A stretch of 37,882 nucleotides of DNA from an uncultured Solirubrobacteraceae bacterium. Lineage in GTDB: Bacteria; Actinomycetota; Thermoleophilia; Solirubrobacterales; Solirubrobacteraceae. The DNA lies in NCBI GenBank assembly GCA_902806175.1, contig CADCVQ010000011.1, positions 1 through 37,882 of the forward strand, given 5' to 3'. The notes under the pieces are model-generated. The model ran no database searches. It saw nothing but the letters and a program-made list of their open reading frames with translations, and was not told where the DNA came from. The translations under genes were made by a program, and so were the position numbers. How positions within the stretch are numbered: position 1 is the stretch's first letter; every line of letters starts with the position of its first letter. This document shows positions 935 to 21,661 of the stretch, piece by piece.

Positions 935-960
935 GCACGTTCCCGTTCCCGGGAACGTGC
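935..960. promoter_or_regulatory. 26-bp palindromic element at the sigma-factor start
   Basis: Perfect ten-base arms GCACGTTCCC (935-944) and GGGAACGTGC (951-960) flank a six-base spacer. A nested perfect 12-bp palindrome GTTCCCGGGAAC occupies 945-956. The right arm overlaps the GTG start chosen for the sigma gene. There is no T-run, so an operator or translation-control hairpin is likelier than a terminator. GGAAC at 952-956 also resembles the -35 element of many ECF promoters. Confidence 0.5.
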
Positions 961-1559
961 GCGCGGTCGACGGTGTAGAGCTTGCAGTTCTGTCTGCACC
1001 GACCCAGACCGAAGCCGTCCTGCTCGCGCGCGCCCGTGAGGGGGATCTCGACGCCTACGAACAGCTCGTGCGCCTTCATCAGCAGCTCGCGTTTCGCACC
1101 GCGCTCGTGCTCGCGCGCAACGTCGCCGACGCCGAGGAGGCCGCGCAGGATGCCTTCGTCAAGGCATGGCGCGCACTGCCGCGCTTTGATCCCTCGCGGC
1201 CGTTTCGCCCGTGGCTGCTGACGATCGTCGCCAACGAGGCGCGCAACCGGCGGCGCTCCGCGGGGCGGCGAGAGGCGCTCGCGCTGCGCGCGGCGGCGTC
1301 GCGGCCGGCGGACGCCGAGCGCCTGCCCTCGCCGGAGCTCGCGCTGCTCGTCGCCGAGCGGGATGCTGCGCTCGCCGCCGCGCTGGAGCGGCTTGACGAC
1401 CGCGATCGCCAGGTGATCGCTTGCCGCTACCTGCTCGACCTGAGCGAGGCCGAGACGGCGGCCGCGCTCGGCTGCCGCGTCGGGACCGTCAAGTCGCGCC
1501 TGTCGCGCGCGCTGGAGCGCCTGCGCGCGCAGGCCGCAACGGAGGCGCTGCATGCCTGA
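957..1559 (+). CDS. ECF-type RNA polymerase sigma factor
   Basis: A 200-residue sigma-70 family protein of the extracytoplasmic-function group, which directs RNA polymerase to a small stress or envelope regulon. Region 2 is at about residues 24-95 (YEQLVRLHQQLAFRTA, then the ADAEEAAQDAFVKAWRAL and PWLLTIVANEARNRRR signatures). Region 4 is at about 137-190 (LDDRDRQVIACRYLLDLS, then a helix-turn-helix ending in VGTVKSRLSRALERLR). The two regions are joined by an Ala/Arg-rich linker with no extra domain. The start is uncertain: the GTG at 957 lies inside a palindrome and lacks a clear ribosome binding site. The gene overlaps the next by 8 bp, as is typical of sigma/anti-sigma pairs. Confidence 0.9.
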   Translation: MRAVDGVELAVLSAPTQTEAVLLARAREGDLDAYEQLVRLHQQLAFRTALVLARNVADAEEAAQDAFVKAWRALPRFDPSRPFRPWLLTIVANEARNRRRSAGRREALALRAAASRPADAERLPSPELALLVAERDAALAAALERLDDRDRQVIACRYLLDLSEAETAAALGCRVGTVKSRLSRALERLRAQAATEALHA

Positions 1560-2256
1560 GCTGCACGACCGCTTGGAGCAACTGGCCGGCAGTGCGCGCT
1601 GGCCGCCGACGCCGGACCTTGCGGCCGGGGTGCGTGCCAGGATCGAGCCGGCGCCGGCGCCCCGCCGTCGTTCTCGTCGCCCGCTGCTGGCTGCGGTGCT
1701 GGCGCTGGTCGTGGGCGGGGGGGTGGTTGCGTCGCCGGGGGTGGGATCGGAGCTGTTGCAGCGTCTCGGTCTACGCGGCGCGACGGTGACGCAGGTTCGC
1801 GAGCTGCCGCCGGCGTCGCTCGGCGGGCCGCTCGCGCTGGGGAAGCGCTACTCGCTCGCGGATGCGCAGCGGCTGGTGGACCATCGGCTGGTGCGCCCGC
1901 GCACGCTCGGTGCGCCCGCCGAGGTGTACGTCGATCGCGATGCCGTGACGTTCGTCTACCGCGCGCGCTCCGGTCGTCCGATCCTCTTCTCGCAGGTTCC
2001 CGGCAGCACCCGGCGCTACGTCCAGAAGCTCGTCACCGCGCGCACGCGCCGCGTGCGCGTCGGCGGCCGGCCGGGGCTGTTGTTGCGCGGGCGCCACGTC
2101 GTGCTGTTCGACCGTCCTGGCGGCGGCATGGCCGTCGCCGAGCCGCGCCTGGCAAAGAACACGCTGCTGTGGGAGCGCGGCAGGTTGCTGCTGCGGCTGG
2201 AGGCCGAGCAGCCTGCGGGCGAGCTGTTGCGAATCGCGCGGTCGGTGGTGGAGTGA
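1552..2256 (+). CDS. membrane-anchored protein, probable anti-sigma partner
   Basis: A 234-residue protein whose ATG overlaps the sigma-factor stop by 8 bp, implying coupled translation. About 40 N-terminal residues are predicted cytoplasmic, followed by an Arg-rich stop and one membrane span near residues 44-63. An outside domain of about 170 residues rich in Val, Arg and Leu follows. The position, topology and size match anti-sigma factors. However, the sequence has no cysteine and lacks the HxxxCxxC zinc anti-sigma motif, so assignment rests on context. The C-terminal half contains DUF4367-like features (a TFVYRAR strand and a LLLRGRHVVLF strand), but I do not claim a domain match. Confidence 0.65.
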   Translation: MPELHDRLEQLAGSARWPPTPDLAAGVRARIEPAPAPRRRSRRPLLAAVLALVVGGGVVASPGVGSELLQRLGLRGATVTQVRELPPASLGGPLALGKRYSLADAQRLVDHRLVRPRTLGAPAEVYVDRDAVTFVYRARSGRPILFSQVPGSTRRYVQKLVTARTRRVRVGGRPGLLLRGRHVVLFDRPGGGMAVAEPRLAKNTLLWERGRLLLRLEAEQPAGELLRIARSVVE

Positions 2257-2283
2257 GCTGAGAAGAAGGGGCTGATCGCGCTC

Positions 2284-2332
2284 GTGGTCGTGGCGCAGTT
2301 GCTGCGGTATGCGCGGCTTTGGCGCCGCGACC
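2284..2332. repeat. two-tier hairpin repeat, copy A1
   Basis: First copy of a 49-bp element repeated with an exact 60-bp period. The outer stem pairs GGTCGTGGCGC with GCGCCGCGACC (one G.T wobble) and the inner stem pairs GCTGCG (2301-2306) with CGCGGC (2312-2317). It lies between the convergent ends of the sigma-partner gene and xylB. Related copies occur at 19544 and 19606. Confidence 0.85.
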
Positions 2333-2343
2333 GGGTCGCGGGC

Positions 2344-2392
2344 GTGGTCGTGGCGGGGTTGCTGCGGGATGCGCGGCTTTGGCGCCACGACC
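2344..2392. repeat. two-tier hairpin repeat, copy A2
   Basis: Second copy, differing from A1 at four of 49 positions. The outer stem GGTCGTGGCG (2346-2355) with CGCCACGACC (2383-2392) is perfect. The G-to-A change relative to A1 in the right arm turns the wobble of A1 into a Watson-Crick pair. The element may serve as a bidirectional terminator, an mRNA 3'-end stabiliser or a REP-like mobile repeat; the sequence alone does not decide. Confidence 0.85.
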
Positions 2393-2449
2393 GGGCGCCG
2401 GCGCGCGAGTCGACGAGCACCCCGCCGGGGTCGCCCAGCAGGACGGGCT

Positions 2450-3883
2450 TCACGCAACACCGCGCAGCGCCGGGTACAGCGCGACGAACCGCTCGCGCGC
2501 GTCGCGGTAGCGCTCGACCCACTGCGCGACCGGCTCGACGATCTCTGCCGGCCGCACGCACGCCGCCACCGCCTCGTGGACGTCGGCGAACGCTCCCGCG
2601 GCGACGCCGCCGAGCAGCGCCGCGCCGAAGGACGCGCCCTCGTCGACCGCCGTGCGCTGCAACGGCAGCTCCAGCACCGACGCAAGGATCTGCAGCCACA
2701 GCCGGCTGCGCGCGCCCCCGCCCGAGACCCGGCCGAGATCGGGGCGCCCGGACAGCTCGGAGACGAGATCGAGGACGTCGCGCAGGCCGAAGGCGACGCC
2801 TTCGAGCACCGCGCGCACGAGCGCGCCGCGGTCGTGGCGCAGCGACAGCCCCGTGAACGCTCCGCGCGCGTCGGGATCGGCGTGCGGCGTGCGCTCGCCG
2901 GCGAGATATGGCAGGAACGTCAGGCCCTCGACGCCCGGCTCCCAGCGCTCGGCCTCGGCCAGCAGCGCGGCGAAGTCGCCGCCCGGCGCGACGGCGTCGC
3001 GCAGCCAGCGCAACGAGCCGGCGGCCGACAGCATCACGCCCATGCTGTGCCACGCGCCCGGCACGGCGTGGCAGAAGGAGTGCACGCGCGCAGCGCGATC
3101 GGCGGCGAACGCGTCCGACGCGGCGAACACGACGCCCGACGTACCGAGCACCACCGACGCGGGCCCCGGCCGGTCGACGCCGACGCCCAGCGCGCCCGCG
3201 GCCTGGTCGCCGGCGCCCGCCGCGATCGGCGTCCCGGCGGACGTCACGCCGCTGCACGCCGGCGACTCGAGCGCGCGCGGCAGCCAGCCCGGATCGACGT
3301 CGAGCGCCTCCACCACGGCATCGCTCCAGCGCCGCTGCGCGACGTCGAAGAGCAGCGTTCCCGAGGCGTCGGCGACGTCGGTCGCGTGCTCGCCGCAGAG
3401 GCGCAGGCGGACGTAGTCCTTGGGCAGCATGATGCGGTCGATCTGCGCGTAGAGCTCCGGCTCGTGGCGCGCGAGCCACACGAGCTTCGGCGCCGTGAAC
3501 CCCGGCAGCGCGCGGTTGCCGGTCTGGGCGATCAGCGCGTCGAGGCCGACACGCTGCTCGATCTGCGTGCACTCGGCGCCCGTGCGGCCGTCGTTCCACA
3601 GCATCGCCGGGCGCAGCACGCGCCCACTCGCGTCGAGCGCCACGAGGCCGTGCATCTGCCCGCTCAGCCCGATGCCCGCGATCGCGCCCGCCTCGCGCAG
3701 CGCGCCGAGCACGACCTGCGCGCCGGCCCACCAGTCCTCGGGGTCCTGCTCGGCCCAGCCCGGGCGCGGCGTCGACAGCGGATGCTCGGCCTCCGCACGC
3801 GCGACGACCGTCCCGTCGGCGGGATCGACGAGCAACCCCTTGACCGACGACGTGCCGATGTCCAGGCCCGCCAGCAGCGTCAC
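2450..3883 (-). CDS. xylB: xylulokinase
   Basis: A 477-residue FGGY-family carbohydrate kinase that phosphorylates D-xylulose with ATP, feeding xylose into the pentose phosphate pathway. It begins with the phosphate-binding LDIGTSSVKGLLVD motif and carries the XylB signatures GLSGQMHGLVALD, LRPAMLWNDGRT, GFTAPKLVWLARHEPE and LPKDYVRLRLCGE. A C-terminal nucleotide site lies at VSGGGARSRLWLQILAS. Length matches known xylulokinases. The GTG at 3883 is chosen because it overlaps the upstream isomerase stop by four bases (GTGA); the longer ORF start has no conserved sequence. It is the last gene of the operon, followed by the A1/A2 hairpin repeats. Confidence 0.93.
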   Translation of the reverse strand: MTLLAGLDIGTSSVKGLLVDPADGTVVARAEAEHPLSTPRPGWAEQDPEDWWAGAQVVLGALREAGAIAGIGLSGQMHGLVALDASGRVLRPAMLWNDGRTGAECTQIEQRVGLDALIAQTGNRALPGFTAPKLVWLARHEPELYAQIDRIMLPKDYVRLRLCGEHATDVADASGTLLFDVAQRRWSDAVVEALDVDPGWLPRALESPACSGVTSAGTPIAAGAGDQAAGALGVGVDRPGPASVVLGTSGVVFAASDAFAADRAARVHSFCHAVPGAWHSMGVMLSAAGSLRWLRDAVAPGGDFAALLAEAERWEPGVEGLTFLPYLAGERTPHADPDARGAFTGLSLRHDRGALVRAVLEGVAFGLRDVLDLVSELSGRPDLGRVSGGGARSRLWLQILASVLELPLQRTAVDEGASFGAALLGGVAAGAFADVHEAVAACVRPAEIVEPVAQWVERYRDARERFVALYPALRGVA

Positions 3884-18345: not shown

Positions 18346-19434
18346 ATGGAATCCAGCAGCAGCTATCTCGCGGTCATCAAGGTCGTCGGCGTCGGCGGCG
18401 GCGGCACGAACGCCGTCAACCGCATGGTCGACGCCGGGCTGCGCGGCGTGGAGTTCATCTCGGCCAACACCGACGCCCAGGCCCTGCAGATGACGGACGC
18501 CGACATCAAGCTCAACATCGGCCACCAACTGACCAAGGGCCTGGGCGCCGGCGCCAGCCCCGAGGTCGGCTTCGGCGCTGCGGGCGAGTCGCGCGACGAC
18601 ATCAAGGAGGCGCTCAAGGGTGCCGACATGGTCTTCGTCACCGCGGGCGAGGGTGGCGGCACGGGCACCGGTGCAGCACCGGTCATCGCCGAGATCGCCA
18701 AGAACGAGATCGGCGCGCTGACGGTCGGCGTCGTCACGAAGCCGTTTGAGTTCGAGGGCAGCCAGCGGACCCGTCAGGCCGAGGAGGGCATCGATCGCCT
18801 GCGCGAGGTCGTCGACACGCTGATCGTGATCCCCAACGAGAAGCTGCTGTCGGTCGTCGAGCGCCGCACGACGATGCTCGACGCCTTCCGCGAGGCCGAC
18901 AACGTCCTGCGCCAGGGCGTCCAGGGCATCACCGACCTCATCACGATCCCGGGCCTGATCAACCTCGACTTCGCCGACGTGCGCACGATCATGCAGGACG
19001 CCGGCTCGGCGCTCATGGGCATCGGCACCTCCAACGGCGAGAACCGCGCCGCCGAGGCCGCGCGCATCGCGATCTCCAGCCCGCTCATCGAAGAGGACGT
19101 CGAGGGCGCGACCGGGATCCTGCTGAACATGACCGGCGGCAAGGACCTCGGCCTGTTCGAGGTCAACGAGGCCGCCGAGATCGTGCGCGAGGCGGCGGCG
19201 CCGAACGCGAACATCATCTTCGGCGCGGTGATCGACGAGGCACAGGGCGACGAGGTCCGCGTGACGGTCATCGCGACCGGCTTCGACCACGGGCGCGCCC
19301 GCCCGCGCACCGCGCGCGAGGAGACACGCCAGAGCGCCCGGCGCATGGATCGCAACCCGCGTATCGACGATCGCCAGCGCTCCTCGCTGGAGATCCCCGA
19401 CGACGACATCGAGATCCCGCCGTTCCTGAGGTAG
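18346..19434 (+). CDS. ftsZ: cell division GTPase FtsZ
   Basis: A 362-residue tubulin homologue that polymerises into the Z ring. The GTP-binding domain has [15 protein letters not shown] near the start and the tubulin signature [16 protein letters not shown]; the synergy loop contains [16 protein letters not shown] short linker rich in Arg leads to the conserved C-terminal peptide [11 protein letters not shown] that binds FtsA/SepF-type partners. ATG 18346 is chosen because the fold begins about ten residues later and because the promoter is just upstream; the AAGG upstream is a weak ribosome binding site. It is the last gene of the cluster; paired hairpin repeats follow. Confidence 0.97.
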
Positions 19435-19543
19435 GTGGCAGGCGCGCGCATCGAGCGTGGGCGGTTGGTGTGAGCCTTGGCGCGGTCGCCGTTGGCGGCC
19501 GGTAGCTGGTTGTGGACGTGATCACCCGCGAGGCGGCGATGGC

Positions 19544-19590
19544 GGTCGTGGCGCGGTTGCTGCGGATGGGGCAGCATCGGCGCCACGATC
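19544..19590. repeat. two-tier hairpin repeat, copy B1
   Basis: Related to copies A1/A2 at 2284. The outer stem GGTCGTGGCGC (19544-19554) pairs with GCGCCACGATC (19580-19590, one wobble); the inner stem pairs GCTGC with GCAGC. It is followed by GCGCGTGC. The copy lies between the convergent ftsZ and DUF5996 genes. Confidence 0.85.
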
Positions 19591-19605
19591 GCGCGTGCCT
19601 TGGGT

Positions 19606-19652
19606 GGTCGTGGCGCGGTTGCTGCGGTTGGCGCAGCATCGGCGCCACGATC
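19606..19652. repeat. two-tier hairpin repeat, copy B2
   Basis: Tandem copy 62 bp after B1 and also followed by GCGCGTGC. The outer stem is the same, while the inner stem is now a perfect six pairs (GCTGCG with CGCAGC). The rest of the 19435-19683 gap shows no convincing gene. Confidence 0.85.
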
Positions 19653-19683
19653 GCGCGTGCGTGCGCTCAGCCGGAAGGCGCGC

Positions 19684-20604
19684 TCAGTCGACCGGCGGCG
19701 GAACTCCCTCTGCACTTGCCGCCAGCGCCTGGTCCCAGGCGCACGCCAGGCAGGCGTGCTGGAAGGCCGAGCGAGCGAACTGCACCGCCGCCGCGTGCGG
19801 GTCGTCGGCGGCGATCACGTCGTCCCAGTCCAGGATGTACTCGCCGAGGTCGCCGTCCCAGCGTGCGGCGTCCGGCGCCAGCGTCGCACCCGCAAAGCCC
19901 TCCGGGGCCGGGTGCGCATACGCGTAGAACGCGGCCTTCGGGTAGTCCGGGCCGCCCGGCCACCAGCCGATCGCGACCTCCTGGGCGTCCATCGCGTTGC
20001 GCACGATGAAGTCGTCGGACGGCGGCTTGGCGGACAGCCCCGAGAAGAGGTTGACGGCGAGGTCGAAGGAGCCCCACCACGCGTTGACCGGCGTCGAGCG
20101 CCCGCGGTAGGGCGCGCGGAAGGCGCTCAGCGCGAGCGCCACGCGCGTCGCGGCGGCGAAGTAGGTCCGCACCTGGTCGCGGTCGTAGGACGCGTGCTCG
20201 GTGTCCTCGTCCAGCGCGGTCTTCCACGGCGTCTCCTGCGGCGTGAGGTTGATCTCGGCCGGCCCGCCGAGCGAGCGCACTGCCGCGAGCATCTCCCGCG
20301 TGACCTCGCCCACCGGCCGATCGGGCGCGAGCGCGACGCGCTGCACGCGCCCGTCGCTGTGCTCCGCGAGCCCCTCGTGCGTGCGCAGGTCAAGGGCGAC
20401 GACGAGCACGCCCGAACCATCGGGCGCTGGCAGCGGCTGTGTCTCCCAGCCGCGCGCCGTGAGCCGCAGCGCCGCGTGCTGCAGTTGGGGCTCGGGCGGC
20501 GCGAGCGTCGCGGCGAGCTTGCCGAGCACCTGCGTGTGCGCGTGCAGCGTCTCGCAGGTCTCGCTCCAGGCGTCGTAGGGAAGGGCGGGCCAGGTTGCGG
20601 GCAT
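19684..20604 (-). CDS. DUF5996 family protein
   Basis: A 306-residue protein of the uncharacterised DUF5996 family: the opening LPYDAWSETCETLHAHTQVLGKL is the typical W...TLH.hTQ..GK pattern. Later come HASYDRDQVRTYF, AFRAPYRG, WWGSFDLAVNLFSG, GWWPGGPDYPKAAFYAYA and GEYILDWDDV. Conserved Trp, His and Asp residues suggest an enzyme or ligand-binding fold, but no function is known. No signal peptide or membrane segment. Start at 20604 fits the family N-terminus and lies 7 nt after TAGCGT; the longer ORF would overlap the divergent gene. Confidence 0.85.
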   Translation of the reverse strand: MPATWPALPYDAWSETCETLHAHTQVLGKLAATLAPPEPQLQHAALRLTARGWETQPLPAPDGSGVLVVALDLRTHEGLAEHSDGRVQRVALAPDRPVGEVTREMLAAVRSLGGPAEINLTPQETPWKTALDEDTEHASYDRDQVRTYFAAATRVALALSAFRAPYRGRSTPVNAWWGSFDLAVNLFSGLSAKPPSDDFIVRNAMDAQEVAIGWWPGGPDYPKAAFYAYAHPAPEGFAGATLAPDAARWDGDLGEYILDWDDVIAADDPHAAAVQFARSAFQHACLACAWDQALAASAEGVPPPVD

Positions 20605-20611
20605 GCGCCGG

Positions 20612-20617
20612 ACGCTA
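20612..20617 (-). promoter_or_regulatory. -10 element of the DUF5996 gene
   Basis: TAGCGT on the minus strand ends 7 nt before the ATG at 20604, consistent with leaderless transcription from the short divergent gap. Confidence 0.45.
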
Positions 20618-20638
20618 CTGGTCACGCACACTGCCCTA

Positions 20639-21142
20639 ATGGACACCCACATTGAGCAGCTCTGGCGCGACGGGGCGCCGCCGTTTGACGGGCTGACGCT
20701 CTGGACGCCCCTGCTGCCCACGGCGCGCCTGCGCGAGGCGCTGGAAGTCGTCGTCGCCGTGCTCGAGACCTACGTCGAGCAGCGCGCGCTGCAGACGGCC
20801 GAGGACTGGCACGAGCACGACGGCTACATCTCGATGGCCTACGAGGCGACGTGGGATCAGCTGCTCGGTGCGCTGAGCGACGACCAGACGCTACGGCGCT
20901 CGAGCCCCGAGGACGACCTCGTCCGCCGCGCGTGGCGCGACCAGAACGACATCTTCTACCTGCGGTGGTTTCACTACGAAGACGACGATTCCGGCGAGGA
21001 CGAGCCGCCGGCCGGCGGCGCCGCCGACCTCACGGCCCCGCGGGCGGTCGTCGACGCCACGCTGCGCCAGCTCGCCGAGATCGGGCTCGACGTCGAGGTC
21101 GGCCCGGCGCGCGACTTCTTCGCCGATCGCTGGGCCGGCTGA
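20639..21142 (+). CDS. conserved hypothetical acidic protein
   Basis: A 167-residue soluble protein rich in Asp, Glu, Trp and Leu, with a highly acidic insert (YEDDDSGEDE) in the second half. No family recognised and no signal peptide. The ATG at 20639 was chosen since an earlier in-frame ATG (20603) would overlap the start of the divergent DUF5996 gene. CACACT lies 6 nt upstream, a weak -10-like element. Divergent pairing with DUF5996 across 34 bp may mean shared regulation; the function is unknown. Confidence 0.65.
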   Translation: MDTHIEQLWRDGAPPFDGLTLWTPLLPTARLREALEVVVAVLETYVEQRALQTAEDWHEHDGYISMAYEATWDQLLGALSDDQTLRRSSPEDDLVRRAWRDQNDIFYLRWFHYEDDDSGEDEPPAGGAADLTAPRAVVDATLRQLAEIGLDVEVGPARDFFADRWAG

Positions 21143-21157
21143 TGCGCCGGCCGCTTG

Positions 21158-21661
21158 TTACTTCACGAAGCGGATCGTGAGCGGGTAGCGGTAGGCGGCG
21201 CCCTGCCCGGCCTTGACCGCCGCGATCACGGTGAGGACGAGCCACGCGACGAACAGCGGGATCAACAGCAGCCACACGAGGAACCCGACCACCACGATCA
21301 GCAGCACCAGCCCGGCGACTACGAGAACGACCGCGTAGAGCAGGATCGAGAGGTTGAAGTTCAGCGCCTCGGCGGCATGCGCGCGCACGAACGGGTCGTC
21401 CTTCTTGATGAGCCAGATCACGAGCGGGCCGATGAACGGAAGGCCGACGAAGAGGGCCAGCAGCGCCGAGAGGTGCGCGCCGAGCGCGAAGTTGCGCGAG
21501 TCGTCGCGCGCGTTCTGCGGGCCGGCGGGCGGGATCGCCGAGGACAGGGCGTCCGTCCAGCGCGTGCCGTCCCAGTAGCGGTGGCTGCCCGAGCCGCCCG
21601 GGTCGGGGTACCAGCCGGCGGCGGCGGGCGGCGGGGCGTCGGGCCTGCCGAAAGGGTCCAT
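21158..21661 (-). CDS. DUF2510 and DUF4870 domain membrane protein
   Basis: A 167-residue membrane protein. The N-terminal DUF2510 motif AGWYPDPGGSGSHRYWDGT (residues about 14-36) is an actinobacterial cytoplasmic module found on many membrane proteins. The rest is a DUF4870 (Tic20-like) domain with AHLSALLALFVGLPFIGPLV, the conserved charged DDPFVRAHAAEALNFNLS segment, and further membrane spans. Localisation is the inner membrane; function unknown. TAGAGT lies exactly 6 nt before the ATG, so the mRNA is probably leaderless. Confidence 0.88.
   Translation of the reverse strand: MDPFGRPDAPPPAAAGWYPDPGGSGSHRYWDGTRWTDALSSAIPPAGPQNARDDSRNFALGAHLSALLALFVGLPFIGPLVIWLIKKDDPFVRAHAAEALNFNLSILLYAVVLVVAGLVLLIVVVGFLVWLLLIPLFVAWLVLTVIAAVKAGQGAAYRYPLTIRFVK

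Follow-up and report, generated by a model that had tools for sequence, protein, structure and literature searches.

The window analysed here, a stretch of 37,882 nucleotides from an uncultured Solirubrobacteraceae soil bacterium, contains four copies of a 47-bp two-tier hairpin. By its FtsZ relatives, the genome falls within Solirubrobacterales. These copies probably belong to a lineage-specific, non-autonomous family of REP/BIME-like dispersed palindromic repeats, which is tolerated at gene ends and spread by a putative trans-acting factor. Copies of the family are intergenic, favour gene 3´ ends and convergent gene pairs, mostly form head-to-tail arrays, follow a consensus particular to each species, and are missing from the corresponding sites of a sister species.

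The four units form two pairs, locus A and locus B, and each pair is located between convergent genes (Table 1). The unit-to-unit period at locus A is exactly 60 bp, as a preliminary description of this DNA had stated, and the second pair that it placed at 19544-19652 is locus B, where the units are 62 bp apart. Each unit is an imperfect palindrome that, in single-stranded form, folds into an outer stem of 10–11 bp, GGTCGTGRCG(C)/(G)CGYCACGACC, followed inwards by a small internal loop and then by an inner stem of 6–7 bp that closes a loop around GGAT. The window units fold at −32 to −37 kcal/mol (z −4.5 to −7.2 against dinucleotide shuffles). When up to three mismatches are allowed, a 23-base pattern of the arm matches the window at exactly these four units, where 0.00 matches are expected from shuffles, and a search of the window against Rfam gave no match. 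The family unit is sharply bounded at 47 bp. Beyond these positions the conservation profile of 49 aligned units drops to ~0.25–0.3 bits or less, with the exception of a C at position 0 (0.38 bits) and a G at +12 (0.33 bits). Both pairs of units exist as first described, but the 49-bp frame given for them adds two unconserved bases. The count of four differences between A1 and A2 was correct, and the outer-stem difference said to keep pairing does so (T.G versus T-A); another, C to G, costs A2 an eleventh outer pair, which shows that pairing does not survive every change in the stems.

Table 1. Units, spacers and neighbouring genes of the two window loci. Units are oriented by the convention that the GGAT loop lies on the window + strand.
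Feature	Position	Strand	Details
Unit A1, 47-bp two-tier hairpin	2286..2332	+	−35 kcal/mol, 11 outer and 6 inner pairs (fold of the 49-nt frame 2284-2332); R3 50.4 bits
Locus A spacer, 13 bp, GGGTCGCGGGCGT	2333..2345	+	Length kept family-wide (13–15 bp), sequence not
Unit A2, 47-bp two-tier hairpin	2346..2392	+	−32 kcal/mol; R3 53.1 bits
Unit B1, 47-bp two-tier hairpin	19544..19590	+	−36.3 kcal/mol; R3 61.4 bits
Locus B spacer, 15 bp, GCGCGTGCCTTGGGT	19591..19605	+	
Unit B2, 47-bp two-tier hairpin	19606..19652	+	−37.1 kcal/mol; R3 63.0 bits
ECF sigma factor gene preceding the ORF upstream of locus A	957-1559		Sigma70_r2/r4 match
ORF upstream of locus A, 3´ end towards element	1552..2256	+	Gene call (caller's start 1786); no Pfam match
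FGGY carbohydrate kinase (xylulokinase-like), locus A, 3´ end towards element	2450..3883	−	Gene call and domain match
ftsZ, locus B, 3´ end towards element	18346..19434	+	Gene call and domain match
DUF5996 protein gene, locus B, in the segment absent beside ftsZ in relatives	19684..20604	−	

Pattern and covariance searches, with 30 fetched loci, identified at least 72 units in ~30 intergenic clusters of the host genome, consistent with the dispersed paired element that had been proposed. This count is a lower bound because at most 150 candidates were scored per genome. An exact-arm search of the same genome returned 19 matches, compared with 0 for a reversed-pattern control. Two interior types, that of the window and the GGTGCGGATATCGC type, are combined with a common outer stem and sometimes occur together in one array. 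The largest cluster (L084 3999-4808) comprises ~ten units of both types in 0.8 kb, together with a repeated CTTGAACAGCATCAnnGAGAGG stretch. Counting of 13-mers revealed no other repeat common to the clusters above the GC-rich background.

Adjacent units are arranged head-to-tail in 37 of 41 pairs. Their spacings are primarily 60–62 bp (n = 23) and 69–72 bp (n = 11), with few others, and 34 of the 38 spacings below 90 bp fall within these two ranges. The intervening spacers measure 13–15 or 23–25 bp and differ in sequence. Between loci, the 14-bp spacers are as similar as shuffled sequences (0.452 versus 0.447) although the spacing is fixed, which indicates that the distance between units is kept while the spacer sequence is free; the 24-bp spacers are slightly more alike than shuffled ones (p 0.011). 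Spacings of 61 and 71 bp differ by approximately one helical turn, and this difference may reflect functional phasing or the trace of a duplication mechanism. Unit identity is 0.826 inside one array and 0.741 between loci. Since array mates are more alike than units of different loci, local duplication does contribute, and spacers inside the larger arrays resemble one another.

The clusters are intergenic, and their units stay clear of genes, with a preference for gene 3´ ends. In the host genome, convergent gaps account for 14 of 32 clusters compared with 39 of 246 other gaps (odds ratio 4.1, p=5e-4), and in G002 and G003, two relatives of the same genus, for 13 of 34 clusters compared with 13 of 88 other gaps (odds ratio 3.6, p=0.007); gene calls were obtained with a simple codon-usage caller written for this analysis. 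The relation to gene orientation suggested by the window is thus found in both sets. Over half of the clusters are not convergent, and 4–6 per set are divergent. The flanking genes are diverse housekeeping genes. A scan of 58 flanking proteins gave 98 families, the 25 most frequent of which include no transposase, and no excess of transposases was observed in the flanks. Two clusters (L074 3849-4479 and L080 3867-4016) adjoin tRNA-Ser genes, and one of them, with four units, is located between two divergent tRNA-Ser genes; the link to tRNA genes was discarded as not general.

Rich families occur in at least three species of the genus, the host included, and the remaining members are sparsely occupied. 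G002 and G003 each carry a rich family with its own consensus of exactly 47 bp and a spacing of 60–61 bp when tandem, and one to a few matches were found in each of G001, G004, G005 and G006. Among 146 genomes of the host's family, matches at E <= 1e-4 were confined to the host's genus and one other (G067, G069), and 23 further genera gave none at this threshold. In G067 of the second genus, the inner stem is different (TGACGGC/GCCGTCA) and the spacing is 70 bp; the consensus differs from species to species, and the stems are compensated in each. An exact pattern scan of 84,980 genomes, a set from which records near the host genome have possibly been left out, yielded 0 matches. A 37-bp palindrome of G050, from another family of the order, was considered (L065, L230) and rejected as unrelated to the 47-bp family; this perfect palindrome, TGGCGCTTTTGTGGCGCTATGCGCCACAAAAGCGCCA (L230 1989-2025), has ~ten similar matches and apparently represents an independent palindromic repeat family.

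Comparison with ~2 Mb of G001, a relative with few contigs, revealed empty sites. At all 11 clusters with both flanks colinear in G001 (11/11), the unit is absent, and the gap in G001 is 17 bp against 322 bp in the host genome at L072 and 49 bp against 1118 bp at L084. The extra DNA at closely aligned occupied sites always exceeds the element (~160 to 1070 bp), and neither a target-site duplication nor a minimal insertion was seen at these sites; transposition itself is for these reasons only inferred. The region of locus B (window 19435-21158) comprises ~1.7 kb that contains the units, the DUF5996 gene and a small ORF between ftsZ and a DUF4870 gene, and it is present in the host genome only. 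In relatives, ftsZ directly faces the DUF4870 gene at a distance of 10–36 bp (G005, G002, G003), 86 bp (G006) or 288 bp (G001). The family accounts for some of the intergenic expansion by which close species of the genus differ. One weak match (L100) aligns through in a relative with an equal gap and was rejected as ordinary conserved sequence. Locus A (window 2257-2449) is a synteny break: in the relatives examined, the upstream ORF and the kinase gene do not lie next to each other, and in G002 ~4.9 kb separate them.

The preliminary description had expected the structure to be conserved, which holds across species and types. Within the first 24 copies of the window's subfamily, no covariation beyond shuffles was detected, so the four window copies could not have revealed it. 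In an alignment of mixed species and types, 89 double-changed cells were counted against 45.7 in shuffles, and the covariation score was 0.215, compared with 0.108 for shuffled and at most 0.091 for slid alignments. Pair 8-40 is G-C in 31 and A-U in 16 units, and pair 17-31 is G-C in 29, C-G in 21 and U-A in 2, with no break. Because the structure was partly chosen from the same sequences that were used for scoring, the double changes outweigh the percentage paired as evidence. The stems covary between species and types, which indicates that the hairpin is maintained. Outer wobbles (G.U versus A.C) occur at 12:3, 7:7 and 4:16 in three species and favour no consistent strand, so an RNA hairpin and a DNA hairpin are indistinguishable; a G.U bias as proof of the RNA strand was accordingly rejected.

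REP, REPIN and BIME repeats are known together with RAYT transposases (PMC2817692, PMC3116915, PMC3733652). The family resembles them as short imperfect palindromes in intergenic DNA, at 3´ ends and in convergent gene pairs, with regularly spaced clusters, a species-specific consensus and preserved palindromy. The unit is palindromic, intergenic and present in at least 72 copies, but spans 47 bp compared with 20–40 bp in REPs, and the flanks of the 49 aligned units lack the conserved unpaired GTAG/CGTC foot of tagged REPs. In contrast to the alternating arrangement of BIMEs, adjacent units are head-to-tail at 61 or 71 bp, with spacer sequences not common to loci. No cognate RAYT gene was found in the element-carrying genomes: a search for the Y1 transposase (RAYT-type, PF01797) gave no match in seven genus genomes (the host assembly is 97% complete) or in the two genomes of the second genus (G067 and G069), and five control genomes matched. 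A search for the Y2 (IS91) type gave no match, but neither did its control. The comparison with REP/BIME repeats drawn initially is thus valid for habitat and behaviour, and the family is REP-like in these respects and not REP by membership, for which tag, transposase and array orientation fail.

Mycobacterial MIRU/VNTR loci are likewise actinobacterial, intergenic and dispersed, and consist of short tandem arrays of 46–100 bp units. A conserved two-tier hairpin is not known to be a defining trait of MIRUs; in the present family it is the palindrome, and not the spacer, that is conserved. CGTC-tagged REPs are also intergenic palindromes without a dedicated transposase, but the CGTC tag is absent here, and this superfamily has been reported from five phyla that do not include Actinobacteria (PMC3733652). 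The view that no such element had been described for the lineage agrees with the literature searched, since neither work on REPs (PMC3733652, PMC12306157, PMC2817692) nor searches by lineage name contained a description of it. In Conexibacter woesei, 'false CRISPRs' have been noted without an explanation, and these may be related (PMC5294841).

The regular spacing would also be expected of chromosomal protein-binding sites, at which a nucleoid protein or topoisomerase binds paired hairpins or palindromes and helical phasing sets a distance of ~61 bp or, one turn more, ~71 bp. The two narrow spacing classes with spacers unrelated in sequence, the recurrence of 60–61 bp in two other species and of 70 bp in another genus, and the compensated stems are all in accordance with such sites. 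Sites with a conserved chromosomal function should persist, whereas the family is patchy even within the genus, from at least 72 units to one or a few, is not detected in the 23 other genera at E<=1e-4, and is absent at every colinear site of G001; we regard this explanation as doubtful. Somewhat less credible still is a primary role as bidirectional terminators or mRNA 3´-end stabilisers, in which hairpin clusters would end convergent transcripts, a function that has been proposed for tandem hairpins of GC-rich genomes. The convergent enrichment and the very stable folds fit this role, and closely spaced hairpins without U tracts have been reported after stop codons at transcript ends, more often in GC-rich genomes (PMC8355165). 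Those cluster-hairpin terminators are, unlike the element here, neither one repeated sequence family nor species-specific insertions (PMC8355165). Moreover, no T tract follows the units, with 0 terminator-like sites of the intrinsic type (hairpin then T run) at both window loci; the non-convergent majority, the divergent clusters, the orthologous genes that lack units in relatives and the variable wobble ratios, which fix no RNA strand, argue against the terminator role, and it leaves the dispersal of one 47-bp sequence unexplained.

Arrays of the CRISPR or integron attC kind, which combine palindromic repeats with short spacers of fixed length, are a very improbable source of the units. Integron attC sites carry the core sites RYYYAAC/GTTRRRY. 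The fixed spacer lengths and differing spacer sequences are shared with such arrays, but the consensus arms lack the attC cores, units in one array are just ~83% identical instead of near-identical, spacers of larger arrays resemble each other instead of being unrelated, the ~30 loci are dispersed and mostly hold one to four units, and no adaptation or integrase family recurs among the 25 most frequent of the 98 flanking families. That there is no dispersed family, and that the units arose by chance or by local tandem duplication of GC-rich hairpins, can practically be dismissed. The closer likeness inside arrays is what local duplication predicts, but over the 47 bp, units of different loci share 74% identity, with their 14-bp spacers at the shuffled level, the arm pattern has a chance expectation of zero in the window, and the reversed-pattern control refutes this account.

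Dispersed repeats moved in trans are the reading that we favour, although a functional protein-binding site would account for the tight spacing and the covariation as well, and the lack of a detected mobilising enzyme or of a transposase excess in the flanks counts against it. A trans-acting factor would recognise the folded hairpin and copy or move it into intergenic DNA, and further units would be added beside an existing unit at a set distance. Copies would persist where they are harmless, downstream of genes, and the hairpin there may double as a two-way transcript end or an exonuclease block; a secondary role as terminator or protein site is possible. More tentatively, the units could represent a new class of hairpin element in Thermoleophilia, not spread by Y1/RAYT, whose factor recognises this 47-nt two-tier fold and places further units a fixed distance away (a 14- or 24-bp spacer, one helical turn apart) whatever the spacer sequence. 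The best-understood REP-like repeats are those explained by a RAYT transposase. The family displays REP-like behaviour in an actinobacterial lineage with no detected Y1 transposase, and combines recent expansions at the species level with a two-tier fold that is conserved and a spacing rule indifferent to spacer sequence, which makes the multiplication of palindromes without RAYT directly testable.

In G002, many copies are embedded in longer mosaic repeats, which also include a common upstream stretch of ~100 bp. At four of its loci (L193, L196, L199 and L207), a second hairpin repeat, GGTRTGGCGAAT...TTCGCCACACC, is located ~20–70 bp downstream of the 47-bp unit.
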